A stretch of 64,000 bases of DNA. Origin: Sinorhizobium fredii USDA 257. GTDB lineage: Bacteria > Pseudomonadota > Alphaproteobacteria > Rhizobiales > Rhizobiaceae. Shown piece by piece: positions 2 through 15,461 of the stretch (position 1 is the first letter of the stretch; each line of letters starts with the position of its first letter). The position numbers and the translations under genes are program-made. The stretch spans positions 3,410,001 to 3,474,000 of the forward strand of contig NC_018000.1 of the NCBI RefSeq assembly GCF_000265205.3, given 5' to 3'. A model generated the notes under the pieces. It was not told the DNA's origin and ran no database searches. It was given only the letters and a program-made list of their open reading frames with translations.

Positions 2-664
2 CATGATCCGGAGCAGGCCAACGCCCTGCTCGATCAAGCCGGCCTTGCCAAACGCGACAGCGACGGCATCCGCATCCTGCCCGATGGCCGCAGGGCGCAG
101 ATCGTCGTCGAAAGCCCCGGCGAAAGCACGCTCGATACGGATGTGCTGCAGCTGATCACCGACTACTGGCAGAAGGTGGGCATTTCGCTCTTCATTCGTA
201 CCTCGCAGCGCGACACATTCCGCAGTCGGGCAGTCGGCGGCGAGATCACTATGTCCATGTGGTTCGGCATCGACAACGGCGTGCCGACGGCGGACATGAA
301 CCCGGGTCAACTCGCCCCGACCGCCGATGACCAGTTGCAATGGCCGGTCTGGGGCCTGAACTATATTTCGCACGGCGAAATGGGCGAGGCACCCGACCTG
401 GAGCCGGTCGTCGAGCTTCTCGACCTGCTCAAGCGCTGGCGGCATTCCGCAGACGATGCCGAGCGGGCCGACATATGGCGGCAGATGCTGTCCATCTATA
501 CGGACCAGGTCTTCTCGATCGGCCTCGTCAACGGTTCATTTCAGCCGATCCTCGTGACGACCAAGCTGCGCAACCTGCCTGAGGAGGCGCTTTGGGGCTT
601 CGACCCGACGAGTTACTTCGGTGCCTACAAGCCGGATACGTTCTGGCTGCAACAGGATAGCTGA
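2..664 (+). CDS. ABC transporter substrate-binding protein, family 5 (C-terminal part)
   Basis: This is the last ~220 residues of a periplasmic solute-binding protein for peptides, opines or related solutes. The reading frame is open from base 2, so the gene starts upstream of the window. The segment begins with a DPEQANALLDQAGL-like stretch typical of the C-terminal lobe of family 5 (DppA/OppA) proteins. It ends in the family's characteristic region just before two permease genes. The stop lies 1 nt before the first permease start, so the three genes form an operon. The N-terminus, signal peptide and most of the ligand site are not visible, so the substrate cannot be inferred. Confidence 0.88.
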   Translation, partial: HDPEQANALLDQAGLAKRDSDGIRILPDGRRAQIVVESPGESTLDTDVLQLITDYWQKVGISLFIRTSQRDTFRSRAVGGEITMSMWFGIDNGVPTADMNPGQLAPTADDQLQWPVWGLNYISHGEMGEAPDLEPVVELLDLLKRWRHSADDAERADIWRQMLSIYTDQVFSIGLVNGSFQPILVTTKLRNLPEEALWGFDPTSYFGAYKPDTFWLQQDS

Positions 665-665
665 G

Positions 666-1664
666 ATGCTGCGGTATATTCTCTGGCGTATCGCAGTGAT
701 GGTGCCGACCCTGCTCATCATCTCGGCGCTTGTCTTTACCATCATCGAGCTGCCGCCGGGCGACTATTTCGAAAGCTACATCGCCGAGCTCAGGGCGCAG
801 GGCGAAGGCGTCGACATGGAGCAGATCGAGTCGCTGCGCCAGCAATACGGTTTCGATCAGCCGCCGCTGCTGCGCTACATCTATTGGGTCGGCGGCATGC
901 TGCAGGGCGACTTCGGCTATTCCTTCGAATATGAGCTGCCGGTCGGCGAGGTTGTCGGAGACCGGCTGTGGCTGACGATCCTGGTGTCGTTCTTCACGAT
1001 CATCTTCACCTGGGTCATCGCCTTCCCGATCGGCATCTATGCGGCGACCAACCAGTACAGCTGGGGCGATTACGGTCTTTCGCTGGTCGGTCTCATCGGC
1101 ATCGCCATCCCGAACTTCATGCTGGCGCTGATCCTCATGTATTTCGCCAATATCTGGTTCGGCACGACGATCGGCCATCTGATGGACCAGAAATACCTCT
1201 CCGAACCGATGAGCTGGGAGAAGGCGAAGTCGATCCTCGAACACATCTGGATCCCGGTCATCATCGTCGGCGCCGCGGGCACGGCGGGGATGATCCGGCG
1301 GCTGAGAGCCAATCTGCTTGACGAACTGCAGAAGCAATATGTCGTGACCGCCAGGGCCAAGGGCCTTTCGCCGACGCGAACGCTCGTCAAATATCCGCTG
1401 CGGATGGCACTCAACTTCTTCATCTCCGACATTGGCTCGATCCTGCCGGCGATCATCTCGGGGGCGGAAATCACCGCGATCGTGCTTTCGCTCGAGACCA
1501 CCGGACCGATGCTGATCAAGGCGCTGCAGAGTCAGGACATGTATCTCGCCGGGTCGTTCCTGATGTTCCTCGCATTCCTCACCGTCATCGGCGTCTTGAT
1601 TTCCGACCTCGCGCTCGCCGTCCTCGACCCAAGAATTCGCCTGCAAGGCAGGAGCACCAAGTGA
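666..1664 (+). CDS. ABC transporter permease, DppB/OppB type
   Basis: Inner-membrane permease of a peptide/nickel-type importer, 332 aa. It starts with an N-terminal membrane helix (about residues 5-30). It then has the periplasmic segment of DppB proteins, several further helices, and an EAA loop in the C-terminal half (around ARAKGLSPTRTLVKYPLR) that docks on the ATPase. I chose the ATG at 666, directly behind the stop of the solute-binding protein. A longer reading frame starts at 621 but overlaps that gene and adds residues foreign to the family. The stop overlaps the GTG start of the next permease, which suggests translational coupling. Confidence 0.9.
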   Translation: MLRYILWRIAVMVPTLLIISALVFTIIELPPGDYFESYIAELRAQGEGVDMEQIESLRQQYGFDQPPLLRYIYWVGGMLQGDFGYSFEYELPVGEVVGDRLWLTILVSFFTIIFTWVIAFPIGIYAATNQYSWGDYGLSLVGLIGIAIPNFMLALILMYFANIWFGTTIGHLMDQKYLSEPMSWEKAKSILEHIWIPVIIVGAAGTAGMIRRLRANLLDELQKQYVVTARAKGLSPTRTLVKYPLRMALNFFISDIGSILPAIISGAEITAIVLSLETTGPMLIKALQSQDMYLAGSFLMFLAFLTVIGVLISDLALAVLDPRIRLQGRSTK

Positions 1665-2836
1665 CGTCACCGATTCCTGCCCCCGGCGAGCCGCTACCGC
1701 ATTACGTGTCGACCGCCCCCTTCGATCCCTATTCCGTCGAGGTGATGACGGAGGAGCAGGTGCGCGTCAATCAGGCGTCGCAGTTGCGGCTGATGTGGTG
1801 GAAGTTCAAGCGGCACAGGGTTGCGCTGGCGTCCGGCATTTTCCTGGCGGTGCTATACGGGATGATTCTCATCTGCGAGTTCCTGGCGCCCTACAACCTG
1901 CACACGCGCAACATGGACTTCATCTATACGCCGCCGCAGCGGGTGCATTTCTTCCATGAGGGCGACTTCGTCGGCCCCTTCGTCTACGGACGGACGATGG
2001 AGCTCGACATGGATACGCTGAAGCGGAACTACTCGGACAATCCCGCCGACATCCAACCGATCCGCTTCTTCTGTCGCGGCGACAGCTACCGCTTCTGGGG
2101 CCTGTTTGAAAGCAACCTGCATCTGGCCTGCCCTGCGGAGAATGGCCAGCTGTTCCTGCTCGGGAGCGACAGGCTTGGACGCGACGTGCTGTCGCGCATC
2201 ATCTACGGCGCGCGGATTTCCCTGACGATCGGGCTTCTCGGCATCACCGTGAGTTTCGTGCTGGGCATCGTGATCGGCGGCCTTGCCGGCTATCACGGCG
2301 GTGTGTTCGATCTCGTCGTGCAGCGGTTGATCGAAGTTCTGCAGTCGATTCCGAGCATTCCGCTCTGGCTTTCGCTTGCGGCGATCATGCCGGCGACGTG
2401 GAGCCCTATCCTCATCTATCTCGGCATAACCGTCATTCTAGGCCTCCTCGATTGGACTGGGCTGGCACGCGCCGTCCGCTCCAAACTGCTTGCGCTCAGG
2501 GAAGAGGATTACGTGCTCGCCGCCCAGTTGATGGGAGCGAGGAGCAGCCGCATCATCGGCCGGCATCTTGTGCCGGGCTTCATGTCGCACCTCATCGCGA
2601 CGGCAACGATCTCCATTCCTGGCATGATTCTCGGCGAGACGGCGCTCAGCTTCCTCGGCCTCGGGCTGCGCCCACCGATCACGAGCTGGGGCATTCTGCT
2701 GACGGAAGCAAAAAGTGTCAGCGTGATTGCCTTCTATCCTTGGCTGTTGTTTCCGACTATACCAGTCATTCTTGTGATATTGGCGTTCAACTTCCTGGGA
2801 GACGGGTTGCGCGACGCCGCAGATCCCTACAAATAG
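1661..2836 (+). CDS. ABC transporter permease, DppC/OppC type
   Basis: Second permease subunit, 391 aa, starting with GTG in a GTGA overlap with the preceding gene. After a ~45-residue cytoplasmic tail and the first membrane helix there is a ~100-residue periplasmic insert (about residues 75-175) before the LGRDVLSRIIYGAR signature and the transport domain. The EAA loop (AAQLMGARSSRIIGRH) and the FLGLGLRPP motif are typical of DppC. Such inserts occur in a subset of alphaproteobacterial DppC proteins. No ATP-binding subunit follows. The next gene is a glycosyltransferase, so the ATPases must lie upstream or elsewhere. Confidence 0.9.
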   Translation: MTSPIPAPGEPLPHYVSTAPFDPYSVEVMTEEQVRVNQASQLRLMWWKFKRHRVALASGIFLAVLYGMILICEFLAPYNLHTRNMDFIYTPPQRVHFFHEGDFVGPFVYGRTMELDMDTLKRNYSDNPADIQPIRFFCRGDSYRFWGLFESNLHLACPAENGQLFLLGSDRLGRDVLSRIIYGARISLTIGLLGITVSFVLGIVIGGLAGYHGGVFDLVVQRLIEVLQSIPSIPLWLSLAAIMPATWSPILIYLGITVILGLLDWTGLARAVRSKLLALREEDYVLAAQLMGARSSRIIGRHLVPGFMSHLIATATISIPGMILGETALSFLGLGLRPPITSWGILLTEAKSVSVIAFYPWLLFPTIPVILVILAFNFLGDGLRDAADPYK

Positions 2837-2914: not shown

Positions 2915-4129
2915 ATGATTCGGCGCTTCGAAGATGCCCGGATTCTCATGTACAGCCACGACACTTTCGGTCTCGGTCACCTGAGGCGCTGCCGCGCGAT
3001 CGCGCATGCCCTCGTCGAGGATTATAGCGGCCTGCAGGTGCTGATCATTTCCGGGGCGACGATCGCCGGCGCCTTCGACTACCGGGCCCGCGTCGACTTC
3101 GTGAAAATCCCCAGCGTCATCAAGCTGAGGAACGGCGAATACACTTCGCTCGACCGCCACATCGACCTGCACGAGACGCTGAAGATGCGTCAGTCGATCA
3201 TTCGCTCGACCGCCGAGACCTTCAAGCCGGACATCTTCATCGTCGACAAGGAGCCGATGGGGCTGCGTGGCGAGGTTGAGGACACGTTGACCTACCTGAA
3301 GACGCACGGGACGAGATTGGTTCTCGGACTTCGGGAAATCATGGATGCGCCGCACCTGCTCGAGGAAGAGTGGAAACGCCGCGACACCATGCGCAAGATC
3401 GAGCAGTTCTACGATTCGATCTGGGTCTACGGCCCCCCGGATTTCTACGACCCGCTGATCGGCCTCGACGTGCCGGCGGCGGTGCGCGACCGCATGAATT
3501 TCGTGGGCTTCCTGCAAAGAAGCGTTCCGCATGACGGATTGCCCGATCACAAGCCGGAGGGCGACTATATTCTCGTGACCACCGGGGGCGGCGGCGATGG
3601 CGCCGAGCTCATACACAACGTCATCCACGCCTACCAGCAGGATCCCAAGCTCACGCATAATGCGCTTGTGGTCCTCGGTCCCTATATGCCCGCCAAGCAG
3701 CGCAACAAGCTGATCCGGAAGGGCAGCCGCATCCCTTTCATCAAGATCATCGAGTTCGACAATCGCATGGAAGAGCTGGTCGCCGGCGCCCGCGGCGTCG
3801 TATCGATGGGCGGTTATAACACCTATTGCGAGATCCTCTCCTTCGACAAGCCGGCGCTCATCGTGCCGCGGCTGCAGCCGCGTGAGGAGCAGCTTATCCG
3901 GGCGCGGCGTGCGTCCGAATTAGGCCTAGTCGAGATGTTGCTGCCGCACGAGTCGGAAGACCCGCTGCGCTTCGCGGCGGCACTCAAGGCCCTGCCGCAG
4001 CGGGCGGCGCCGTCGAGCAACAGGAACGGCCTGAGGCTCGAGGGCCTTGTCCATATCTCCGGGATTGTCGGAGAATGGCTCGATCACAGATCGAAGGAAC
4101 ACCTGAGCGTCGTCAAGCAGACAAGCTGA
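2915..4129 (+). CDS. predicted glycosyltransferase (COG4671-like, MurG/GT28 fold)
   Basis: A 404-aa cytoplasmic protein with two Rossmann-like halves, resembling predicted glycosyltransferases of the MurG/UGT superfamily. The N-terminus carries the family's MYSHDTFGLGHLRRC motif (residues ~12-26), where the GxGH loop contacts the acceptor. The second half contains TTGGGGDG and the SMGGYNTYCE segment that corresponds to the nucleotide-sugar site. It lies 78 nt after the permease and 7 nt before a GT4 gene, so it probably belongs to the same transcript. Donor and acceptor are unknown. It shares its key motifs with the gene at 5366, which suggests that the two act in the same pathway. Confidence 0.8.
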   Translation: MIRRFEDARILMYSHDTFGLGHLRRCRAIAHALVEDYSGLQVLIISGATIAGAFDYRARVDFVKIPSVIKLRNGEYTSLDRHIDLHETLKMRQSIIRSTAETFKPDIFIVDKEPMGLRGEVEDTLTYLKTHGTRLVLGLREIMDAPHLLEEEWKRRDTMRKIEQFYDSIWVYGPPDFYDPLIGLDVPAAVRDRMNFVGFLQRSVPHDGLPDHKPEGDYILVTTGGGGDGAELIHNVIHAYQQDPKLTHNALVVLGPYMPAKQRNKLIRKGSRIPFIKIIEFDNRMEELVAGARGVVSMGGYNTYCEILSFDKPALIVPRLQPREEQLIRARRASELGLVEMLLPHESEDPLRFAAALKALPQRAAPSSNRNGLRLEGLVHISGIVGEWLDHRSKEHLSVVKQTS

Positions 4130-4136
4130 AAAACCC

Positions 4137-5384
4137 GTGTCGCAAACTCGAAAGATCGCCGTTGTCCTGAAGGGCTACCCACGCCTTTCCGAAACCTTCA
4201 TTGCCCAGGAGCTGTTGGGCCTCGAAAGGGCAGGGCACGACCTCGTGCTTGTCGCCCTGCGGCGCCCGACGGACACGAAGCGTCATCCCGTCCATGACGA
4301 GATCCGGGCTAAAGTGTTCTATCTGCCGGAATACCTGCATGACGAGCCCTGGCGGGTGTTTGGTTCCCTGTTGAAATCGCTGCCCAAGGCCGGGTTCTGG
4401 CGGGCTCTGGTTCCCTTCCTACGGGATCTCCGTCGTGACTGGACGCGCAACCGCTTCCGCCGTTTCGGCCAGGCGCTGGTGCTCGTCGCCGAGTGGCCGG
4501 AGGGTGCCCGCTGGCTGCATGCGCATTTCATCCACACGCCGGCCTCGGTGACTGCCTATGCGAGCATCATGGCCGGCGTTCCCTGGACCTGCTCCGCGCA
4601 CGCCAAGGACATCTGGACCTCTTCGGATTGGGAGTTGTCGGAAAAACTCGGACGGGCGCGCTGGACGGTGACCTGTACGCGCAGCGGCTTCGAGCATCTC
4701 AAAAGCCTGACGGCCGAGAAGTCCCGTGTGCATCTGAGTTATCACGGCCTCGACCTGCATCGCTTCCCGAGCTTCGAAGGCGATCATTCTCGCCGCGATG
4801 GCTCCGATCCTGGCGACCCGGTGCACATCCTGAGCGTCGGGCGCGCTGTCGCCAAGAAGGGCTACGACATCCTCCTCAAGGCGCTGTCGCTGCTGCCCGC
4901 CGATCTCAACTGGCGCTTCGAGCACATCGGCGCAGGCGATCTGACGAAGGAGCTTCGGGGGCTTTCCGACCATCTCGGACTTGCCCAGCACGTCACCTGG
5001 CGCGGGGCCCTCGACCAGAAGGACGTGCTCGCACGCTATCGCGCGAGCGACATTTTCGCACTTGCCTGCCGGGTTGCGGTCGATGGCGATCGCGACGGGC
5101 TGCCAAACGTGCTGGTCGAGGCGTCGAGCCAGCGGCTTGCCTGCGTTTCGACACGGGTCTCCGGCATTCCGGAACTGCTTGACGACGAGGAGAACGGCCT
5201 CCTGGTGCCGCCGGAGGAACCCCGCGCCCTCGCTGCCGCGCTCGAGCGGCTCATCCGCGATCCGGCTCTGCGCATGCGGCTTGGCGCTACGGCGGAAAGG
5301 CGCGTGCGGGCCGAGTTCGATCATCACTCGAGCGTCAACCAGTTGAGCGGCCTTTTCGAAAGCGAATGGAGAAAGTCGCCTTGA
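4137..5384 (+). CDS. glycosyltransferase family 4 protein
   Basis: A 415-aa GT-B glycosyltransferase with a GTG start. The N-terminal domain opens with VVLKGYPRLSETFIAQEL, common in GT4 enzymes of exopolysaccharide pathways. The C-terminal domain has ILSVGRAVAKKGYDILLKAL and the donor-binding EX7E region around DGLPNVLVEASS, followed by STRVSGIPELL. No membrane helices are seen, so it probably acts at the inner face of the membrane on a lipid-linked or protein acceptor. It sits between the two COG4671-like enzymes, 7 nt after one and overlapping the next by 19 nt. Substrate unknown. Confidence 0.87.
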   Translation: MSQTRKIAVVLKGYPRLSETFIAQELLGLERAGHDLVLVALRRPTDTKRHPVHDEIRAKVFYLPEYLHDEPWRVFGSLLKSLPKAGFWRALVPFLRDLRRDWTRNRFRRFGQALVLVAEWPEGARWLHAHFIHTPASVTAYASIMAGVPWTCSAHAKDIWTSSDWELSEKLGRARWTVTCTRSGFEHLKSLTAEKSRVHLSYHGLDLHRFPSFEGDHSRRDGSDPGDPVHILSVGRAVAKKGYDILLKALSLLPADLNWRFEHIGAGDLTKELRGLSDHLGLAQHVTWRGALDQKDVLARYRASDIFALACRVAVDGDRDGLPNVLVEASSQRLACVSTRVSGIPELLDDEENGLLVPPEEPRALAAALERLIRDPALRMRLGATAERRVRAEFDHHSSVNQLSGLFESEWRKSP

Positions 5385-6547
5385 GCCAGCGTCGCGTTTT
5401 TTTCTATGTGCAGCACCTGCTCGGTATCGGGCATCTGGCAAGGGCCAGCCGCATTGCAAAGGCGCTGCTGGTCGGCGGCTTCGATGTGACGATGGCGACC
5501 GGCGGTTTGCCCGTCCCTGGCTTCCCGGGAGAGGGCCTGAGGACGGTCGTCCTGCCGCCGGTGACGGCGGGCGACAAGGGCTTCTCCGGCCTGGCTGACG
5601 CAGAGGGTAATCCGGTCACGGCCGCTTTCCAGGAACATCGCAAGGATGTGCTCCTGGAGGCGCTTCATCTCTCTGAGCCGGACGTCGTCATCGTCGAGGC
5701 CTTTCCGTTCGGCCGCCGGCAGATGCGCTTCGAACTCCTGCCCTTGCTCGACGCGATCGAAGCGATGGATCGGCGCCCGCTGGTGGCGGCTTCGCTGCGC
5801 GACATCCTGCAGGAGCGGACAAAACCAGGGCGGGCCGAGGAGACGGTCGAACTGGTGAAGAAGCACTTCGATCTCGTCCTCGTCCATGGCGACCCGGCCT
5901 TCGCGCGGCTCGAGGAGACCTTTCCGCTTGCAGGCGAAATCGCCGACCGGGTGGTCTATACCGGGCTTGTCGCTCCGCCTCCGCCGGCTGAACCTGCCGA
6001 GACATTCGACATCCTGGTTTCCGCGGGTGGCGGCGCGGTCGGCAAGGAGTTGATCGGCGCAGCACTCGGGGCGGCGAGGATATTGCCGCAAGACCTCCGC
6101 TGGTGTCTGGTGACCGGCCCCAATCTGCCGCAGCCGGATTTCGACGACCTCTCCGCCGCGGCGCCGCATGGCGTCAGCCTGTTTCGCTTCCGGCAGGATT
6201 TTGCAAGCCTCCTTGCCGGCGCGCGTCTTTCGGTTTCGCAGGCCGGCTATAACACCGTCTGCGACATACTCCGCGCTGGCTGCAGCTCGCTGCTCATCCC
6301 CTTTACCGCCGGCGGCGAAACGGAGCAGAGTACGCGGGCAACGAGGTTGGAGAGCCTCGGCCTCGCCGCCGTTCTGCCGGAAGACGGAATCACGCCGCAG
6401 GAACTCGCGCAGCAGGTCGAATCGATGCTCGCGCGATCGAAACCGGATATCCCGCCGCTCGACCTCGACGGAGCCGACAGGACGGCGACGATCCTCGAGG
6501 AGCATCTGAAGCGGATGGTAGGCCTCAGATCGTGCCGATCAGCATGA
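5366..6547 (+). CDS. predicted glycosyltransferase (COG4671-like), second copy
   Basis: A 393-aa relative of the gene at 2915. It has the N-terminal FFYVQHLLGIGHLARAS motif, a central SAGGGAVGKEL turn and the SQAGYNTVCDIL segment equivalent to GYNTYCEIL in the other copy. The ATG at 5366 lies 19 nt inside the preceding glycosyltransferase gene; a TTG at 5381 is the alternative. The overlap implies translational coupling. Its 3' end overlaps the convergent methyltransferase gene by 23 nt. It is probably a sugar transferase of the same glycan or glycolipid pathway; the reaction is unknown. Confidence 0.8.
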   Translation: MEKVALSQRRVFFYVQHLLGIGHLARASRIAKALLVGGFDVTMATGGLPVPGFPGEGLRTVVLPPVTAGDKGFSGLADAEGNPVTAAFQEHRKDVLLEALHLSEPDVVIVEAFPFGRRQMRFELLPLLDAIEAMDRRPLVAASLRDILQERTKPGRAEETVELVKKHFDLVLVHGDPAFARLEETFPLAGEIADRVVYTGLVAPPPPAEPAETFDILVSAGGGAVGKELIGAALGAARILPQDLRWCLVTGPNLPQPDFDDLSAAAPHGVSLFRFRQDFASLLAGARLSVSQAGYNTVCDILRAGCSSLLIPFTAGGETEQSTRATRLESLGLAAVLPEDGITPQELAQQVESMLARSKPDIPPLDLDGADRTATILEEHLKRMVGLRSCRSA

Positions 6548-7199
6548 AGCGCGTATATTTCTTCATCTGCAGCGCGCCCGCGAAATCGACGCGGGACAGT
6601 CCAGCCTTGGCTTGGAATTCCTCGAGCGAGGCAACGCAGTTTATGTGGCTCGGCTCGCTGAAATAGTCGTTTGACTGCAGCAGCACGCGGGTGCCGGAGG
6701 GGACGAGGCCGAGCCATGTGCCGAGGTCGGCGATGTGCTCGCAACTGGTGTTGACCACGAGATCAGCCTTCAAGCTGCGATAGTCGATCGCATACATGTC
6801 CGCCGTGACAGCGCGAAACCGATCGCCGAACCCGGAATTCAGCGTGCGGGCTACCTGTTCGACAGCCGGATCGATGTCCAAACTGTCGATCGCGTCGATC
6901 GTGAAGCGCCGATCGTCGAGGAGCATGGCCGGCAGGACACCGTACCAGCCGCCGAGAACGACGACCCTGCCATAGGCGGGACCGGCATTGTTGAAGAGCT
7001 CGTCGCGCGCCCAGAGCTTGCACAGAACCTGCTTGTGGTTGAAGGCATTGGCGATGCTCGCATCGGGATGCTTCGCGACGACCCTGGCTATGCCGTCGAC
7101 GAGTACGCTTCCCGTGTAAGCGGCCAATCCTCGCGCAAGGTCGTAACCGTTCTCGTGCCATTCGCTGGAACTGTGGGGGGAGTGGCTGGCATGCGTCAT
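6525..7199 (-). CDS. class I SAM-dependent methyltransferase-like protein
   Basis: A 224-aa protein. The central VVVLGGWYGVLPAMLL segment is a motif-I-like SAM loop. It is followed by an acidic strand end (AIDSLDIDP) and an NTSCEHI segment. These fit a Rossmann methyltransferase, although the GxGxG loop is imperfect (LGGWYG). I chose the start MTHASHSPH at 7199; upstream codons in the longer frame do not look like protein. No strong Shine-Dalgarno sequence is visible. It is transcribed against the glycosyltransferase operon and overlaps its end. The FkbM gene at 10894 has a similar IGGWIG motif. Modification of the same glycan is plausible but inferred. Confidence 0.72.
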   Translation of the reverse strand: MTHASHSPHSSSEWHENGYDLARGLAAYTGSVLVDGIARVVAKHPDASIANAFNHKQVLCKLWARDELFNNAGPAYGRVVVLGGWYGVLPAMLLDDRRFTIDAIDSLDIDPAVEQVARTLNSGFGDRFRAVTADMYAIDYRSLKADLVVNTSCEHIADLGTWLGLVPSGTRVLLQSNDYFSEPSHINCVASLEEFQAKAGLSRVDFAGALQMKKYTRFMLIGTI

Positions 7200-7522
7200 G
7201 CGGCTGTTGTAAGCTCGGGGTCCGGCAAGCGCAAGGCGCGCAAGGAAAACCGCGACTGACAGGTTGCCGAAGGAGCCGAGTGAACACGCCGCTCGCGCCG
7301 GAACGACAGGAACTGGTTCGATTTTTTGGCGGCAGGGAGTTTGCTTGGTCAGCCAAGCGCTTGACATGGAGTAGGCCTCTGCTCTCATGGCAGGTAGTCA
7401 CGAGTTCGTAGAAGAGGCGCACGCCATTGAAGATCTGGTGGAGAGAAACCATTTGCGGCCAGCGTCCGCTTCCGGAGCGGCGCTGCGATCCCGAAATTTA
7501 GATTAGGTCTCATTACCCGCCC
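7200..7522. other. intergenic region between divergent genes
   Basis: These 323 bases separate the minus-strand methyltransferase from the plus-strand ABC-like gene and should carry both promoters. A TTGACA hexamer on the plus strand (7361-7366) has no good -10 at 17 nt. A short CTTGG/CCAAG inverted repeat lies at 7344-7357. I see no reading frame or RNA that I can support. Confidence 0.5.
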
Positions 7523-10234
7523 ATGGAACCACGTCTTTCCCGCTACATCTGGACCCATACCCGAAAGTCACAGCTCTGGATCCTCCTGATCGTAGCGCTG
7601 TCAATGATCCCTTATTTCATGTCCTTCGACCTGCCTAAGCAGATCGTCAACGGGCCGATCCAGGGGCAGGGATTCGAAACGCCCGGGGCAACCCAGACGT
7701 TTCTGCCGATTTCCTTCAGCCTGCCATTCGTTGGCGAGGTCAATGTCTTTTCGGGAATCGAGCTTGGGCGGCAGGGCACGCTGCTGGCACTCAGTCTCGT
7801 CTTTCTCCTGCTGGTGATCATCAACGGGCTCTTCAAGTTCTACATCAACACCTACAAGGGCCGGCTTGGTGAACGGCTCCTGAGGCGCATCCGTTTCGAG
7901 CTTATCGATCGCGTCCTGCGCTTCCCACCGCATCACTTGAAGCGCGTGAAGCCGGCGGAAATCTCGACGATGATCAAGGATGAAGTCGAGCCCATGGGCG
8001 GCTTCACGGGCGATGCCTTCGTGCAGCCTGCGCTTCTCGGCGGCCAGGCGCTGACGGCGCTGATTTTCATTCTGATTCAGAGCTTCTGGCTCGGCATCAT
8101 CGCCTTTGTCATCGTCGCGGTCCAGGCGGTGATCATCCCGCGCATGCGCCGGCGGCTGCTGGTGCTCGGGCGCGAACGGCAACTTACGGCGCGTGAGCTC
8201 TCGGGGCGGGTCAGCGAAATCGTCGACGGCATCGGCACGATCCGCGGTCATGATACCTCCAATTACGAGCGCGCCGACATTGCCGCGCGTCTCGGCCGGA
8301 TCTTCAAGATCCGCTACGACATTTATGAATGGAAGTTCCTGGTGAAGTTCCTGAACAACTTCCTCGCCCAGGTCACGCCCTTCTTGTTCTATTCGATCGG
8401 CGGCTATTTCGCCCTGCAGGGGCGCCTCGACATCGGCCAGCTCGTCGCGGTCATCGGCGCCTACAAGGATCTGCCCGGACCGCTGAAGGAGCTGATCGAT
8501 TGGGATCAAGCGCGTCAGGACGTGCAGGTCAAATACTCCCAGGTCGTGGAACAGTTCAGCGTCGAGCCGTTGATCGACCCGAAGGTGCAAGAGGTTTCGG
8601 TTGCTCCGCCTCAGGCGCTCTCAGGCACGCTTGCGGCCGTCAATCTCACCATTGCCGACGATGGCGGCGCCAAGCTGATCGAACATGTCTCCTTCCAGGC
8701 ACGCCCGGGCGAGACGGTCGCCATCACCGGGGGGACGGGCGGCGGCGGAGAGGCTCTGGCCGAGGCGCTCGGCCGCCTAGCCTGGCCGGCAAGCGGCAGG
8801 ATCGTCATCGGCGACGAGGATATTCACGAACTGCCGGAAGCGGTCATCGGGCGGCGGATGTCGTACGCCTCCTCGGAGGTCTACGCTTTCCAGGGCAGAC
8901 TCGGCGACAATCTGCTCTATGGTCTCAAGCACGCGCCGCTGACCGAGGTGGCTTACGAGGGCGACAAGGCGGCTCATCGTCGGTGGGAACTGCTCGAAGC
9001 GAAGCTCGCTGGCAATCCCTCGTTCGACCTCAATAGCGATTGGATCGACTACGGAGCTGCGGGGGCCAAGGGGCCGGAAGATCTGTTCGGGAAGATCAGG
9101 GCCGTGCTCGATGTCGTGCTCCTGACGAACGACATTTCGGCGCTCGCTGTCCGCTCGACGATCAATCCCGTCGAACACGAGGCTTTCGCCAGCGAAATCG
9201 TCGAGATGCGTGCCGCGCTGCGCCGGCGGCTCGAGGCAGAGAGGCTCAGCGATCTTGTCGTGTTCTTCGAGCCGGGCTCCTACAATGTCGAAGCAACGGT
9301 TGGCGAAAACCTGCTGTTCGGCACAGTCACAGACCAGGCGCGGTGGGAAAGGGCACTGGAGAGCCACCCCTTCTTCAAGACCGTGTTGAAACGGGCCGGC
9401 CTTCACGAGACCTTCTACGAAATGGGGCTCGAAATCGCCGAGAACGTCGTCGAATTGTTCCGCGACCTGCCGCCGGATCACCCCTTCTTCCAGCAGCTTA
9501 CCTTTATGACCAGCGAGGAAATTCCGACCTATGAGGCGCTTCTTCAGAAGCTCAGGGGCCGGCCGCTCGACGAGGTCTCGGAGGAGGACGCAATCCGGAT
9601 CATCCGGCTGTGCTTCGGCTATATCGAGCCGCGGCATCGCTTCGGCCTCCTGACCGAGGATCTGATGCAGAAGATCGTCGAGGCGCGGCGCGAGTTCAGC
9701 GACGGCCTGCCCGCCGATCTCGTCGGCATCATCGAGCATTATCAGCCGAACCGCTATATTGCCTCGGCCAGCATTCTCGACAACGTGCTCTTCGGTCGGA
9801 TCGGCCATAAGCACACGGACGGGTCGGACAAAATTCGGGCGATCGTTCGCGATCTCTTCGAATCGCTCGGCCTCTACAACAAGGTGTTGGCCTTCGGGCT
9901 CGATTTCGATGTCGGGGCCGGTGGCAAGCGCTTGACGGCCGGCCAGCGGCAGAAGCTCAACCTGGCGCGCGCCCTGATCCGGCTTTCCGATTTCTATATC
10001 TTCAATGAGCCGCTACGGGCTCTCGACCAACGCACACAGGACCAGATCACCCGCAACACCTTCGCCTTCCTGCATGACGAGAAGCGCGATCCGGCGATCG
10101 TATGGGTCCTTTCCAATCCCGCCCTTTCGGAACTCTTCGACCGGGTGGTGCATTTCGAGAACGGCCGGTTGGTATACGAAGAAGCGGTGGAAACGCCGTC
10201 GAAAGGCAGCGACTATAAGGAACTGGCATCTTGA
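7523..10234 (+). CDS. ABC exporter-like membrane protein with degenerate, expanded nucleotide-binding domain
   Basis: A 903-aa protein. Residues 1-345 resemble a type IV ABC exporter membrane domain, with helices around 14-34, 85-104, 172-205 and 278-310. Residues ~365-900 resemble an ABC ATPase but lack key residues. The Walker A stretch at 402-410 has Gly409-Glu410 where Lys-Ser/Thr are expected. The Q-loop Gln is Ser451. Walker B (824-830) reads FYIFNEP with Asn for Asp828. The switch His is replaced (LSNP, 863-866). The signature LTAGQ (804-808) and the putative catalytic Glu829 remain. Between Q-loop and signature lies a ~330-residue insertion containing further NLLFG-type motifs. It is probably a pseudo-ATPase, or an ATPase that works with another subunit. 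The cargo is unknown. A cyclic-nucleotide-binding gene follows 93 nt downstream. Confidence 0.85.
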   Translation: MEPRLSRYIWTHTRKSQLWILLIVALSMIPYFMSFDLPKQIVNGPIQGQGFETPGATQTFLPISFSLPFVGEVNVFSGIELGRQGTLLALSLVFLLLVIINGLFKFYINTYKGRLGERLLRRIRFELIDRVLRFPPHHLKRVKPAEISTMIKDEVEPMGGFTGDAFVQPALLGGQALTALIFILIQSFWLGIIAFVIVAVQAVIIPRMRRRLLVLGRERQLTARELSGRVSEIVDGIGTIRGHDTSNYERADIAARLGRIFKIRYDIYEWKFLVKFLNNFLAQVTPFLFYSIGGYFALQGRLDIGQLVAVIGAYKDLPGPLKELIDWDQARQDVQVKYSQVVEQFSVEPLIDPKVQEVSVAPPQALSGTLAAVNLTIADDGGAKLIEHVSFQARPGETVAITGGTGGGGEALAEALGRLAWPASGRIVIGDEDIHELPEAVIGRRMSYASSEVYAFQGRLGDNLLYGLKHAPLTEVAYEGDKAAHRRWELLEAKLAGNPSFDLNSDWIDYGAAGAKGPEDLFGKIRAVLDVVLLTNDISALAVRSTINPVEHEAFASEIVEMRAALRRRLEAERLSDLVVFFEPGSYNVEATVGENLLFGTVTDQARWERALESHPFFKTVLKRAGLHETFYEMGLEIAENVVELFRDLPPDHPFFQQLTFMTSEEIPTYEALLQKLRGRPLDEVSEEDAIRIIRLCFGYIEPRHRFGLLTEDLMQKIVEARREFSDGLPADLVGIIEHYQPNRYIASASILDNVLFGRIGHKHTDGSDKIRAIVRDLFESLGLYNKVLAFGLDFDVGAGGKRLTAGQRQKLNLARALIRLSDFYIFNEPLRALDQRTQDQITRNTFAFLHDEKRDPAIVWVLSNPALSELFDRVVHFENGRLVYEEAVETPSKGSDYKELAS

Positions 10235-10327
10235 TGTAGTATTAGCATCGGGAGGCAGGCGTAATTTCCCGGTCGGTCGGGAAGGGACGTGATAGCGCCC
10301 ACGACACACTCGGAGAAGCGGACTGAT

Positions 10328-10792
10328 ATGCTCCTAAAAGACGAAGTGGAAATGTTGCGCCGGATCACGCTTTTTTCCGGCCTGCCGCCTGCGAAACTCA
10401 AACTTCTCGCTTTCACCTCCGACCGGGTGATGTACAGCGCTGGCGAAGACCTGTTCCATCAAGGAGATATCGGCGACGCCGCCTATGTCATCCTGTCCGG
10501 CAAGGCCGACGTGCTGGTTTCGACGCCAACCGGGCAGTTGAAGGTTGCCGAGGTCGAGCAGAATTCGATCGTCGGCGAGATCGCCATCCTCTGCAACACG
10601 CCGCGTACGGCAACCATTCAGACGACCACTCCGCTCGAGGCCTTGCGCATTCGCAAGGACGACTTCCTGAAGCTGCTCGCCGATTTTCCGGAAATGGCGG
10701 TGGAGATCATGCGTGTGCTCGCCGACCGCCTCAGCCAAACGACCTCCGAGCTCACCGAAGCCCGCAGCCGCGCGCAACGAGTTGAAGCATAG
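10328..10792 (+). CDS. stand-alone cyclic nucleotide-binding domain protein
   Basis: A 154-aa protein made almost entirely of one cNMP-binding beta-barrel. The phosphate-binding cassette at about residues 83-98 (VGEIAILCNTPRTATI) keeps the Glu and Arg that contact the ribose and cyclic phosphate. No helix-turn-helix follows; the protein ends in a short amphipathic, charged helix. It is therefore not a Crp-type transcription factor but probably a sensor subunit. I chose the ATG at 10328 because GGAG lies 12 nt upstream; the GTG at 10289 has its purine stretch too close. It lies between the degenerate ABC protein and an FkbM methyltransferase, so it may regulate them. Confidence 0.85.
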   Translation: MLLKDEVEMLRRITLFSGLPPAKLKLLAFTSDRVMYSAGEDLFHQGDIGDAAYVILSGKADVLVSTPTGQLKVAEVEQNSIVGEIAILCNTPRTATIQTTTPLEALRIRKDDFLKLLADFPEMAVEIMRVLADRLSQTTSELTEARSRAQRVEA

Positions 10793-10893: not shown

Positions 10894-11643
10894 ATGCGCG
10901 CCATAACCTATTTCGACAAGACCGTTTACTTCCCCGACAAACCGGAAAAGAAGCGCTTCTTCGCCCGCCTGCAAGCGGGCCAGTGGGAGCCCGGCACGTT
11001 TCGGAACATCGCCCGCCTCGTAGATACGAAGACGACCTTCATCGACATAGGCGGCTGGATCGGCGTGACGTCCTACTGGGCGGCTCAGATCGCAAACAAT
11101 GTCATCGTCGTCGAGCCCGATCCGGTGTGCTTCGACATCCTGACGCAGATGAAGGTTGGCAACGCCGGCGAGGTGGCACTTGTCAACGCCGCGCTGTCGC
11201 AGGACGAGCGCCTGGTGCTCAACTCCGTCGGGGGCGGCTTCGGCAGTTCGGAAACCTCGGCGCTGATCGCCGACGACACCGGCATGGCGATTTCCGCCGA
11301 GACCGTCACGATCCCGAAGCTGCAGGCGATGGCGAAGACCGGGCGGCTCTGCTTCAAGATCGACATCGAAGGCTATGAATACAAGGCGCTCGACCAGTTC
11401 CGGGCAATCGACCGGAAGCGGACGGCGGGCGTTCTGCTGGCGGTGCATCCGCAGATCCTGGCTGCCTCGCTTTCCGGCCCCGCGGTTTTGCGGTCGATCC
11501 GGACCATGGCGGCAACGGTGCGGCTGATCCGAAGCTTTCGCGGATTTCGCCTGGAGAATCGGTCGGCGATCTTTACGGCGATCCGCAAGTCGATCGCCCG
11601 ACGCGAACTCAGAGGCTTCGACCTGCTCTTCCTTGCCAAGTGA
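10894..11643 (+). CDS. FkbM family methyltransferase
   Basis: A 249-aa SAM-dependent O-methyltransferase. Motif I is at residues ~47-60 (TTFIDIGGWIGVTS). An EPDP motif (74-77) binds the SAM ribose, and FKIDIEGYE in the middle of the protein is the FkbM hallmark. FkbM proteins methylate hydroxyls of polyketides, glycans and glycolipids. The start follows the cyclic-nucleotide-binding gene by 101 nt on the same strand, which suggests one operon with the ABC-like protein. Methylation of the sugar product of the neighbouring glycosyltransferases is the likely role, but this is inference from context. Confidence 0.87.
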   Translation: MRAITYFDKTVYFPDKPEKKRFFARLQAGQWEPGTFRNIARLVDTKTTFIDIGGWIGVTSYWAAQIANNVIVVEPDPVCFDILTQMKVGNAGEVALVNAALSQDERLVLNSVGGGFGSSETSALIADDTGMAISAETVTIPKLQAMAKTGRLCFKIDIEGYEYKALDQFRAIDRKRTAGVLLAVHPQILAASLSGPAVLRSIRTMAATVRLIRSFRGFRLENRSAIFTAIRKSIARRELRGFDLLFLAK

Positions 11644-12318: not shown

Positions 12319-12804
12319 TCAGCGTGTCGATGCACCAGATCGCCGCACACCGCGCACCGGTTCGACACCGCCGCGGCCGAACCTGGCAGGCTCAAGCGGC
12401 TTCTCCGGCAGCTTTTCCGCATCGGCAAGATCGTCGATTATCGGGCAATCCGGCCGCGCATCGCCGTGGCAATGGGCGGCAAGATGCTTCAGCGTGCGGC
12501 TCATCGCCTTCAACTCCTCCGCCTTGCGTTCGAGTATCGCCACTTGATCGAGCGCGATCTTCTTGACCTCGCTGCTGGCGCGCGAACGATCGCACCAAAG
12601 CGCCAGAAGGTCCGCCATCTGCTCGACGGTGAAGCCGAGATCACGGGCGCGCCGGATGAAGCGCAGCGTATGGACATCGTTGTCGCCGTAATTGCGGTAG
12701 CCGGACTGGCTCCTGTCGGCCGGCGGGATGAGACCGATCTTCTCGTAGTAACGGATCATCTTCGCCGAAACGCCTGAAGCGTGCGCGAGATCGCCGATAT
12801 TCAT
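12319..12804 (-). CDS. cueR: Cu(I)-responsive MerR-family regulator CueR
   Basis: A 161-aa copper-sensing transcription activator. The N-terminal MerR helix-turn-helix reads MNIGDLAHASGVSAKMIRYY. A dimerisation helix follows, then the metal-binding loop with Cys112 and Cys120 in the CHGDARPDC arrangement, the spacing of CueR and selective for Cu(I), Ag(I) and Au(I). The final ~30 residues are a variable tail. It lies 88 nt after copA on the same strand. A matching operator with a 19-bp promoter spacer is found upstream of the copZ-like gene, so it probably controls the whole locus. Confidence 0.93.
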   Translation of the reverse strand: MNIGDLAHASGVSAKMIRYYEKIGLIPPADRSQSGYRNYGDNDVHTLRFIRRARDLGFTVEQMADLLALWCDRSRASSEVKKIALDQVAILERKAEELKAMSRTLKHLAAHCHGDARPDCPIIDDLADAEKLPEKPLEPARFGRGGVEPVRGVRRSGASTR

Positions 12805-12892
12805 GTCATCACCCTTTCGACAGGCGGCGGTTATCTTGGAGATATAAGGTGGCCCACGACCGGAAGCGAATAGAACCGCTTGTCAGTGCCTA

Positions 12893-15382
12893 TCACCCAC
12901 GCGCAGAGGACGGAAATCTCTTGAGCCGCAGGGCATTGCCGACCACGAAGACGCTGGAAAGCGCCATCGCACCGGCGGCAAAGACGGGCGAGAGCAGCAC
13001 GCCATAGCCGGGATAGAGCGCACCGGCGGCCACCGGTATCAGCACCACGTTATAGGCAAAGGCCCAGAACAGGTTTTCCTTGATGTTGCGGATCGTCGCC
13101 CGGGAAAGTGCTATCGCATTAGGCACGCCGAGCAGATCGCCGGACATCAGCACCACGTCGGCGCTCTCGATCGCGACGTCGGTTCCCGTGCCGATGGCAA
13201 TCCCGACATCGGCGGTGGCAAGCGCCGGCGCGTCGTTGATCCCGTCGCCGACGAAGGCGACATTGCGGCCATCCGCCTGCAGGCGGCTCACCGCCGCGAC
13301 TTTGCCGTCCGGAAGCACCTCGGCGAGAACATCGTCGATGCCGAGCTTGCGGGCGATGGCCTCTGCAGTCCGGCGGTTGTCGCCGGTGACGATCGCGATC
13401 TTCAGGCCGAGATCATGCAGCGCCCGAATGGCTTGTGGCGTCGTCTCCTTCACCGGATCGGCAACGGCGATTATCGCGGCGAGCCTGTCATCGATCGCGG
13501 CATAGAGCGGGCTCTTGCCTTCGTCGCCGAGCCGGGCGGCCTCCGAGGCAAAGACCGAGACGTCGAGGCCGAGGCGCGCCATCAGCCTGTCGGCGCCCAC
13601 ATGGACGGTCTTTCCGGCGATCTCCGCCCGGGTGCCGAAGCCAGGGATCGCCTTGAAATTGTCGGGGTCGCTGACAGCGAAGCCCTCGGCCTTGGCAGCC
13701 GAAACAATGGCTTCGGCGATCGGGTGTTCGGAGCGTGCTTCGGCGGCGGCGACCAAAGCCAGGACGGAACTGCGATCGAAACCCGGCGCCGTGTTGAGGT
13801 CGGTCAGTTCCGGCCGCCCCTTGGTCAGCGTGCCGGTCTTGTCGACGGCGATAATTTCGGCATTGCGCAAGGTCTGCAAGGCTTCGCCCTTGCGGAAAAG
13901 CACACCCATCTCGGCGGCGCGGCCGGTGCCGACCATGATCGAGGTCGGCGTCGCGAGGCCCATTGCGCAGGGGCAGGCGATAATCAGCACCGCAACGCCG
14001 TTGACGAGTGCGAAGGCCAGGGCCGGGTGCGGTCCAAAGATAAGCCAGACGACAAAAGTCAGCAGGGCGACGGCCATGACAGCCGGCACGAACCAGGCCG
14101 TGATGCGATCGACGAGCGCCTGGATCGGCAGTTTCGTGCCTTGCGCCTGCTCAACCATCCGGATGATCTGAGCAAGGACCGTATCGGCCCCGACCTTGGT
14201 GGCGCGGAATGTGAAGGCGCCGGTCTTGTTGATGGTGCCGCCGACGACGTCCGATGCCTTCGTCTTTTCGACCGGCACCGGCTCGCCGGTGATCATCGAT
14301 TCATCGACATAGGAATCTCCCTCGACAATCGTGCCGTCGACGGCAATCTTCTCCCCGGGACGCACCAGCACAAAGTCGCCGGCGCGCAACTCGGCAATCG
14401 GGATCTCCAGCGCCTCGCCGTCGCGGCGGACCCGTGCAGTCTTCGGCTGAAGCCCCATCAGATGCTTGATCGCCTCCGACGTGCGCCCCTTGGCGCGCGC
14501 TTCGAGCAGCCGTCCGAGCAGGATCAGCGTGACGATCACGGCTGCCGCTTCGTAATAGACATTGGATGTCCCGGTCGGCAGAAGCCCCGACGCAAAGGTC
14601 GCGACGACGGAATAGCCCCAGGCGGCCGCCGTCCCGATCGCCACCAGCGAATTCATGTCTGGCGCGACACGCAGCAGGGCAGGCACACCCTTCGCGAAAA
14701 AGCGCAAGCCGGGGCCGAAGAGAACGATCGTCGCGAGCGCAAACTGCAGGTACCAGCTCTGCTCCATGCCGATCCGGGTCATCACGAAGTCATGGATCGC
14801 CGGCACGAAGTGCGACCCCATTTCGAGGACGACGATAGGCAGCGTCAGTAAAGCGGCGATCAGGAAGTCCCGCTGTAGGCGGTTGAGCTCCTCGTCGCGC
14901 TTCTCCGCTTCGCGGTCGATGTCGCGGTCATTGCCGCGTTGATGCGCCTCGTAGCCGGCGCCGCGAACCGCGTCCAACAGCATCTGCGTAGACGCGAGCC
15001 CCCTGACCAACCGGATCGAGGCTCTCTCGCTGGCCAGATTGACATTCGCCTCGACAATGCCTGGAACGGCCCTCAGCGCTTTCTCCACGCGCCCGACGCA
15101 GGAGGCGCAATTCATCCCCTCGATGCCGAGCTCGAGCGTGTCTTCAACCGCTCCGTAACCGACATTCTCGATCGCTTTGACGATCTCGGCTGGTTTCGCC
15201 GTCGTATCGAGCCGGACGTCTGCGCGCTTCGTTGCCAGATTGACGGACGCGGATACTACGCCCGGCACGGCGCTGATCGCCTTCTCGACGCGCGCCACGC
15301 AGGAGGCGCAGTTCATGCCCTCCACAGAAAGGCTCAGCCTTTGCAAATCTTCTGCATTTCTGACGGCACTCGGGGATGCCAT
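12893..15382 (-). CDS. copA: copper-exporting P1B-type ATPase
   Basis: An 829-aa Cu(I) efflux pump of the inner membrane (also called ActP in rhizobia). It has two N-terminal heavy-metal-associated domains, each with GMNCASC (Cys25/28 and Cys92/95), and eight predicted membrane helices. The actuator TGEP motif (365-368), the transmembrane CPC site (470-472), the phosphorylation motif DKTGT (Asp514) and [10 protein letters not shown] are all present, so the pump should be active. I chose the ATG at 15382, which has AAGGA upstream; the longer frame from 15457 adds a non-family stretch. It is 79 nt downstream of the copZ-like gene and is expected to be induced by CueR. Confidence 0.96.
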
Positions 15383-15461
15383 GGTCCTATTCCTTGTGAT
15401 GTATCTGCCTTGAGGATGGGGGTTTTCGAATGGAGCGCGGCCGAGCAATCGCTTCATCCGC

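Follow-up and report, generated by a model that had tools for sequence, protein, structure and literature searches.

In the window (the whole stretch of 64,000 nucleotides analysed here), a gene for an ABC exporter-like protein with a degenerate ATP site lies immediately upstream of a gene for a cyclic-nucleotide-binding (cNMP) protein. The genes around this pair are as follows:

143-664, plus strand: SBP_bac_5 solute-binding protein, C-terminal part; the gene begins upstream of the window (L156:10763-12664)
621-1664, plus strand: OppB-type permease
1661-2836, plus strand: OppC-type permease
2915-4129, plus strand: GTa, GT28-C type glycosyltransferase
4137-5384, plus strand: GTb, GT4-type glycosyltransferase
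5366-6547, plus strand: GTc, GT28-C type glycosyltransferase
6525-7388, minus strand: ORF whose S. meliloti counterpart is annotated as a class I SAM-dependent methyltransferase
7523-10234, plus strand: pseudo-ABC exporter ORF of 903 aa (type IV transmembrane domain plus degenerate nucleotide-binding domain)
10289-10792, plus strand: cyclic-nucleotide-binding protein (PF00027, E 5.9e-21)
10894-11643, plus strand: FkbM-family methyltransferase, which adjoins the pair in 16 Sinorhizobium/Ensifer loci (L021-L036)

The order in the window is SBP-OppB-OppC-GTa-GTb-GTc-(minus-strand ORF)-ABC-cNMP-FkbM, and upstream of the window lie an OppDF-type double ATPase, a polysaccharide lyase, a cyclase and a nucleotide-sugar dehydrogenase. 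The minus-strand ORF gave no Pfam or NCBIfam match. Beside the cluster, at 12319-15457, are a CueR-type regulator and a CopA-type copper P-type ATPase, found in 11 and 10, respectively, of the 16 loci L021-L036. In those parts of the published papers that were available, SMb20813 is named an msbA homologue (PMC10945364) and is at most a candidate counterpart of the pseudo-ABC gene; smb20804/smb20805 are named as KPS genes (PMC5539429), SMb20811 as the site of a spontaneous variant without known importance (PMC6180224) and pRL110056 as an O-antigen enzyme that matters for root colonisation (PMC11103875), and for these no placement in the present cluster is claimed.

The 903-aa ORF has a six-helix transmembrane domain (TMD) fused to an ABC nucleotide-binding domain (NBD), and is one half of a type IV (MsbA/ABCB-like) exporter-like membrane dimer. 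We agree with the earlier note that the reading frame is unbroken over its 903 residues. The top NCBIfam match is MsbA (TIGR02203), at 152.9 bits vs. a cut-off of 602, which places the protein outside the MsbA lipid A flippases. In the predicted structure, a small beta-rich element appears between TM helices 1 and 2 (residues 58-81, window 7694-7765), with strands predicted at moderate confidence at 58-60, 63-67, 71-76 and 79-81; such an element is unusual in a type IV exporter. The parts of the protein on which the argument depends are the following:

7523-8557, plus strand: transmembrane domain, residues 1-345, with PF00664 at residues 79-311 (Pfam, predicted structure)
8729-8755, plus strand: degenerate Walker A, residues 403-411 (GGTGGGGEA), Gly409 for Lys and Glu410 for Ser/Thr
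8858-8926, plus strand: repeat copy 1, the Q-loop/ENLLYG element, residues 446-468, Ser451 for Gln
8927-9757, plus strand: NBD insertion of about 277 residues, residues 469-745
9257-9325, plus strand: core of repeat copy 2, residues 579-601, FEPGSYNVEATVGENLLFG
9731-9802, plus strand: core of repeat copy 3, residues 737-760, QPNRYIASASILDNVLFG
9932-9946, plus strand: signature LTAGQ, residues 804-808
9992-10009, plus strand: degenerate Walker B, residues 824-829 (FYIFNE), Asn828 for Asp
10112-10114, plus strand: switch-His position, residue 864, here Ser

An ATP-hydrolysing exporter would carry a Walker A of the form GxxGxGK[ST], from which GGTGGGGEA departs, and the remaining residues are Asn828, Ser451 and Ser864, though Glu829 is present. 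The substitutions in Walker A, Q-loop, Walker B and switch His to which the earlier note had drawn attention were all confirmed in the ORF. To follow these positions through the family, 209 distinct proteins (the window's own included) were aligned from 234 loci, after removal of identical proteins, of frames outside 780-1200 aa and of L006. Ninety-seven of them, again with the window's own, form a close set at 60% identity or more over the best segment, and 112 are more distant. The Walker A Lys and Ser/Thr, the Q-loop Gln, the Walker B Asp and the switch His are kept in none of the 97 close rows. Position 409 is Ala in 60 and Gly in 37, position 410 is Glu in 92, Asp in 4 and Asn in 1, position 451 is Ser in 63 and Ala in 34, and position 864 is Ser in 60, Thr in 18, Ala in 15, Pro in 3 and Gly in 1, while Asn828 is invariant (97/97). 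The proposed alignment of orthologues thus found the loss of these five residues fixed. The companion statement that the signature and Glu829 are kept is true of this protein, but Glu829 is present in only 2 of the 97 close rows, where position 829 is otherwise Arg (72) or Gln (23).

More distant relatives are less uniform. An intact Walker A in orthologues, which would have spoken against the earlier reading, is absent from the 97 close proteins; Lys409, however, is present in 71 of the 112 distant ones, which also keep Gln451 in 20 rows, Asp828 in 20, Glu829 in 62 and His864 in 34. Since Lys409, Glu829 and His864 survive there in part, ATP binding, or even ATP use, may persist in some members. 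All six canonical residues occur together in 0/209 rows, the best row having five. On a tree built from the TMD columns of 109 members (<80% identical) and one outgroup, the minimum number of switches between a kept and a lost state is 17 at position 409, 8 at 410, 15 at 451, 15 at 828, 20 at 829 and 19 at 864. This quick tree, in which 33 of the 107 inner branches are weak, a very long outgroup branch joins L153 and gaps are scored as lost, points to repeated change at the six positions, with counts that cannot separate loss from gain. In the same non-redundant set of 109, an acid stands at 410 but not at 828 in 79 members, at both positions in 8, at 828 only in 9 and at neither in 13 (Fisher p 0.001, kinship ignored). 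Judged from these alignments, the acidic residue seems to have moved, in the wider family, from Walker B to the Ser/Thr position of Walker A; residues 410 and 828 (window 8750-8752 and 10004-10006) perhaps form a rearranged metal site.

The gene is nevertheless maintained, as the check on selection proposed in the earlier note bears out. Twelve of the 16 Sinorhizobium/Ensifer loci L021-L036, those whose gene has 903 codons, gave a median whole-gene dN/dS of 0.092 (0.064-0.108), i.e., purifying selection at about 0.09 within Sinorhizobium. By part, the values are 0.067 for the TMD, 0.074 for the insertion, 0.115 from signature to switch and 0.158 from Walker A to Q-loop; the TMD shell and the insertion are held, and the ATP-site region is the loosest part. 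A search of 24 genomes of the genus, its own included, gave a match in all, stop-free over residues 1-903 in 22 and single in 23, the fragmented G009 having two partial matches split over two contigs. The ortholog of G013 (L006, G013:C2:1213644-1216352) has one in-frame TAG, which may be real or a sequencing error; its coordinates are those of a match in S. fredii NGR234 NC_012586.1. In the window itself, the residue changes are not explained by a frameshift or by faulty sequencing. With five of the six canonical residues absent in 97/97 rows and the frame under purifying selection, the earlier identification as a pseudo-ABC protein holds: the 903-aa ORF is a maintained pseudo-ATPase, neither a pseudogene nor a sequencing error. 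The loss of catalytic residues is well supported, and hydrolysis itself has, on sequence grounds, probably been lost with them.

In the samples searched, the family is confined to the Alphaproteobacteria. Among GTDB contigs, a relative is encoded in at least 575 of the 593 candidate stretches listed, of which the best 80 (L021-L100) were taken as loci. In a class-level sample, 129/385 genomes (86/277 genera) match at E 1e-60 or better; in a phylum-level sample, 27/398 genomes match, every one in the same class, and a search with the insertion only (E 1e-4) found 31/398, again all in that class. In the phylum-level search, 5 of 16 other genomes of the same family gave no match, so the gene is dispensable to some bacteria.

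The insertion sits between Q-loop and signature and holds two further copies of the Q-loop/"ENLLFG" element, so that the NBD appears, by profile comparison, to carry three copies of it. In profile-profile comparisons, the second and third segments match with probability 98.3 (E 1.1e-14), the first and second with 90.1 and the first and third with 90.0 (E 1.6e-6 each). Nine column-reversed controls gave at most 1.0, and when segments were set against other parts of the protein, 13 of 15 pairings gave at most 1.4; in the remaining two (26.0 and 96.9), the match is confined to columns common to both segments. The repeated core terminates three times in (E/D)-N-(L/V)-L-(F/Y)-G (451-468, 582-600 and 739-758), the element found after the Q-loop of ordinary exporters. 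The full predicted model has a like strand-helix-strand order at 446-474, 579-602 and 737-760. Copy 2 folded alone gave no credible PDB match, and the claim of a triple repeat is therefore a sequence-based one.

The second component of the system is the cNMP protein. Its frame at 10289-10792 contains PF00027 with the phosphate-binding Gly, Glu and Arg, and its start is probably the ATG at 10328, judging from the 465-nt S. meliloti CDS. It is not a CRP-type transcription factor, as PF00027 is the sole Pfam match in 167 aa and a C-terminal HTH is absent. It matches TIGR03896 (cyc_nuc_ocin, bacteriocin-type transport-associated protein; E 4.3e-13), but at 49.3 bits lies far under the cut-off of 161.05. 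Among distinct members with enough downstream sequence, 152/159 have a cNMP partner (11 fused, 141 separate) and seven have no cNMP match. For the 143 distinct proteins whose downstream sequence reaches 700 bp or more, the figures are 6 fused, 134 separate and 3 without; among 16 additional stretches, 5 carry a fusion, 7 a separate cNMP gene (one at 618 bp) and 4 neither. Counted over the full 234 loci with duplicates left in, 14 are fused, 204 separate and 16 without a cNMP match, 13 of these last having short flanks; the separate genes lie within 150 bp in 193 cases, at 150-500 bp in 10 and further away in one. The seven members without a partner (L110, L119, L120, L254, L255, L257 and L259), inspected over 1.4-1.7 kb downstream, had no consistent link to ATP-site intactness. 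In the fusions scanned (4/4), PF00664 comes first and PF00027 last in one frame, and PF00005 is recognised between them in 2/4. The fusions L147, L148, L149, L154 and L155, about 1018-1044 aa long and with ATP sites that are highly degenerate, belong to one family, G193 and G370 have two copies each of fused members, and a Ruegeria conchae plasmid protein of 1031 aa (L238) resembles the L147 type.

The gene partnership between pseudo-ABC and cNMP protein is well supported, and it and the catalytic-residue loss rest on independent lines of evidence. Adjacency and fusion suggest that the cNMP protein regulates the transporter. Its phosphate-binding cassette is well kept (Gly 128/128, Glu 122/128, Arg 127/128), and Thr follows the cassette Arg in 118/128; a Thr there favours cGMP in eukaryotic domains, and we take it as a lead only. 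A cyclase lies 4.4-5.8 kb upstream of the window in its own genome (L156), and cyclases are near the cluster in S. meliloti and R. johnstonii plasmids; PF00211 was detected in both cyclase proteins scanned (L156, L236). Cyclases at least 60% identical to that of L236 were found in 13 of the best 80 GTDB loci (L021-L100), where at most 8 kb per side may fall short of the gene, as well as in L156, L237 and L239. In L170, from another family of the class, a 37% identical cyclase adjoins a fused protein on the same strand.

In Alphaproteobacteria, the wider neighbourhood often contains glycosyltransferases and an Opp-type transporter. Across loci L021-L155 (n=135, with varying flanks), 103 have GTa, 78 have GTb and 83 have GTc; of the 19 longer distant loci L157-L175, 13 have GTa or GTb next to the pair. 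The usual arrangement in distant families is an ABC-cNMP pair oriented divergently from GTa-GTb-GT4-histidine phosphatase-GTc-(267 aa)-OppDF. A recurring cluster protein of about 260 aa (L167:13940-14740) has no Pfam or NCBIfam match, and some of its motifs presumably recall polysaccharide deacetylase. The other six of the 19 distant loci (18 kb each) have the ABC and cNMP domains and none of these glycosyltransferases, so a glycan role may not be general; no relatives of the window's glycosyltransferases were found near the fused L173, L174 and L238, which have longer flanks.

Lost ATPase parts, selection and a cNMP partner together suggest a pump shell that has been placed under a different signal. 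The explanation we favour, with confidence somewhat above even, is an exporter shell free of ATP hydrolysis and controlled by cyclic nucleotides, which gates surface-glycan assembly or serves as its scaffold. It belongs to an alphaproteobacterial family whose ATP site decays again and again, with the fold, the TMD and a family-specific NBD insertion retained. The exporter-like dimer would no longer be powered by ATP hydrolysis, and the cNMP protein would be a subunit docked on the NBD, whose ligand state, instead of ATP, would set the conformation of the NBD dimer and TMD. The complex would then gate (by downhill flipping or facilitation) or scaffold the assembly of a glycan or glycolipid of the cell surface, produced by the enzymes encoded nearby. 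Ligand, cargo and mechanism of such a shell we infer, and it is the neighbour genes that suggest the link to glycan. In the available part of a study on HetC, ppGpp was bound by the cNMP domain of that exporter, and cAMP did not stabilise it (PMC10986499), which counts against the cNMP-ligand reading. A sharper version, in which fuel and trigger have both been replaced as ATP sites decayed repeatedly across lineages, a CRP-like subunit with a nearby cyclase switches the TMD and the triplicated Q-loop/helical entry element serves as docking and coupling device, is put forward tentatively, as a proposal with the chances rather against it.

Other readings take up parts of the same evidence. If the acid has indeed moved from Walker B to Walker A, a metal-nucleotide site might persist with its geometry changed, and the protein could be a non-hydrolysing ATP-sensing switch. 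The 79/109 members with an acid at 410 but not at 828 are consistent with this, as are Lys (71/209) and Arg (32/209) at position 409; its own clade, however, has Ala or Gly at 409 in 97/97 and has lost the Q-loop Gln and switch His, and the part from Walker A to Q-loop is the least constrained of those compared (dN/dS 0.158), so we regard such a switch as unlikely. The earlier note had proposed a new role after loss of the ATPase, one option being a flippase driven by a partner; the pseudo-ABC part of the proposal stands, whereas the hydrolysing partner finds no support in the neighbourhood. Halves of heterodimeric exporter pairs are usually neighbours, and the nearest other PF00664 match lies more than 300 kb away. 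Thirteen of the 14 PF00664 matches in the genome are other genes that could supply a hydrolysing half, and exporters with one degenerate site do exist (PMC12038006, available in part), but the four fusions scanned add a cNMP domain rather than a second half, which leaves the degenerate half of a heterodimer an improbable identity. It is about equally improbable, to our minds, that the dead exporter is a pure membrane scaffold for glycosyltransferases, the cNMP protein acting as an on/off tether and nothing being transported: GTa in 103/135 loci, GTa or GTb in 13/19 distant ones and a predicted helical insertion that could be a docking surface would fit, yet the TMD is the most constrained part compared (dN/dS 0.067) and 6/19 distant loci lack these glycosyltransferases but have both the ABC and the cNMP domain. 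A decaying pseudogene or sequencing artefact, to which the drift of catalytic positions across the family and the TAG of the G013 ortholog might point, deserves almost no credence given a dN/dS of 0.09, a stop-free frame over 1-903 in 22/24 genus genomes (the exceptions being G013 and G009) and identical residues missing in 97/97 distinct proteins.

We return to the proposed hydrolysis-free exporter shell under cyclic-nucleotide control. The family is widespread; it has apparently given up the ATP site wholly in the rhizobial branch and partly elsewhere, and has kept the transporter together with a second-messenger-type partner. If the proposal is true, it offers a natural system for asking what the ABC fold does without hydrolysis and whether another ligand can drive the same ABC conformational change, and would suggest that cyclic nucleotides and envelope glycans are connected in rhizobia. 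In the parts available of a literature to which subscription journals mostly did not belong, no paper was found on a cyclic-nucleotide-partnered, ATPase-dead exporter family.

With MsbA and the type IV (ABCB-like) exporters, the pseudo-ABC protein shares the TMD and NBD fold; unlike MsbA, it has lost its catalytic residues, carries the insertion of about 277 residues in its NBD and has a cNMP partner. The degenerate ABC exporter chains most familiar from bacteria each form half of an active pair, and TM287/288 and TmrAB are heterodimeric exporters with one degenerate site. MsRv1273c/72c is another such heterodimer (PMC12038006, in the part available). What these systems share with the present one is an exporter chain that has lost catalytic residues, but the pseudo-ABC gene has no intact half nearby. 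CFTR and SUR are ABC proteins in which the fold is reused for gating or regulation, and both still bind ATP; the likeness lies in that reuse of the fold, with no claim of sequence closeness. HetC of Nostoc, as far as the available part of its description goes, is a peptidase-containing exporter whose N-terminal cyclic-nucleotide-binding domain is needed for function, and which carries a C39 peptidase and depends on its ATPase residue (PMC10986499). In the 903-aa ORF, by comparison, only ABC_membrane and ABC_tran were detected, and neither a C39 peptidase nor an N-terminal cNMP domain. Each of the two systems, on that partial description, joins an exporter to a cNMP-type domain; unlike HetC, the pseudo-ABC system does so with a degenerate ATPase site and with the cNMP domain as a separate gene or a C-terminal fusion.
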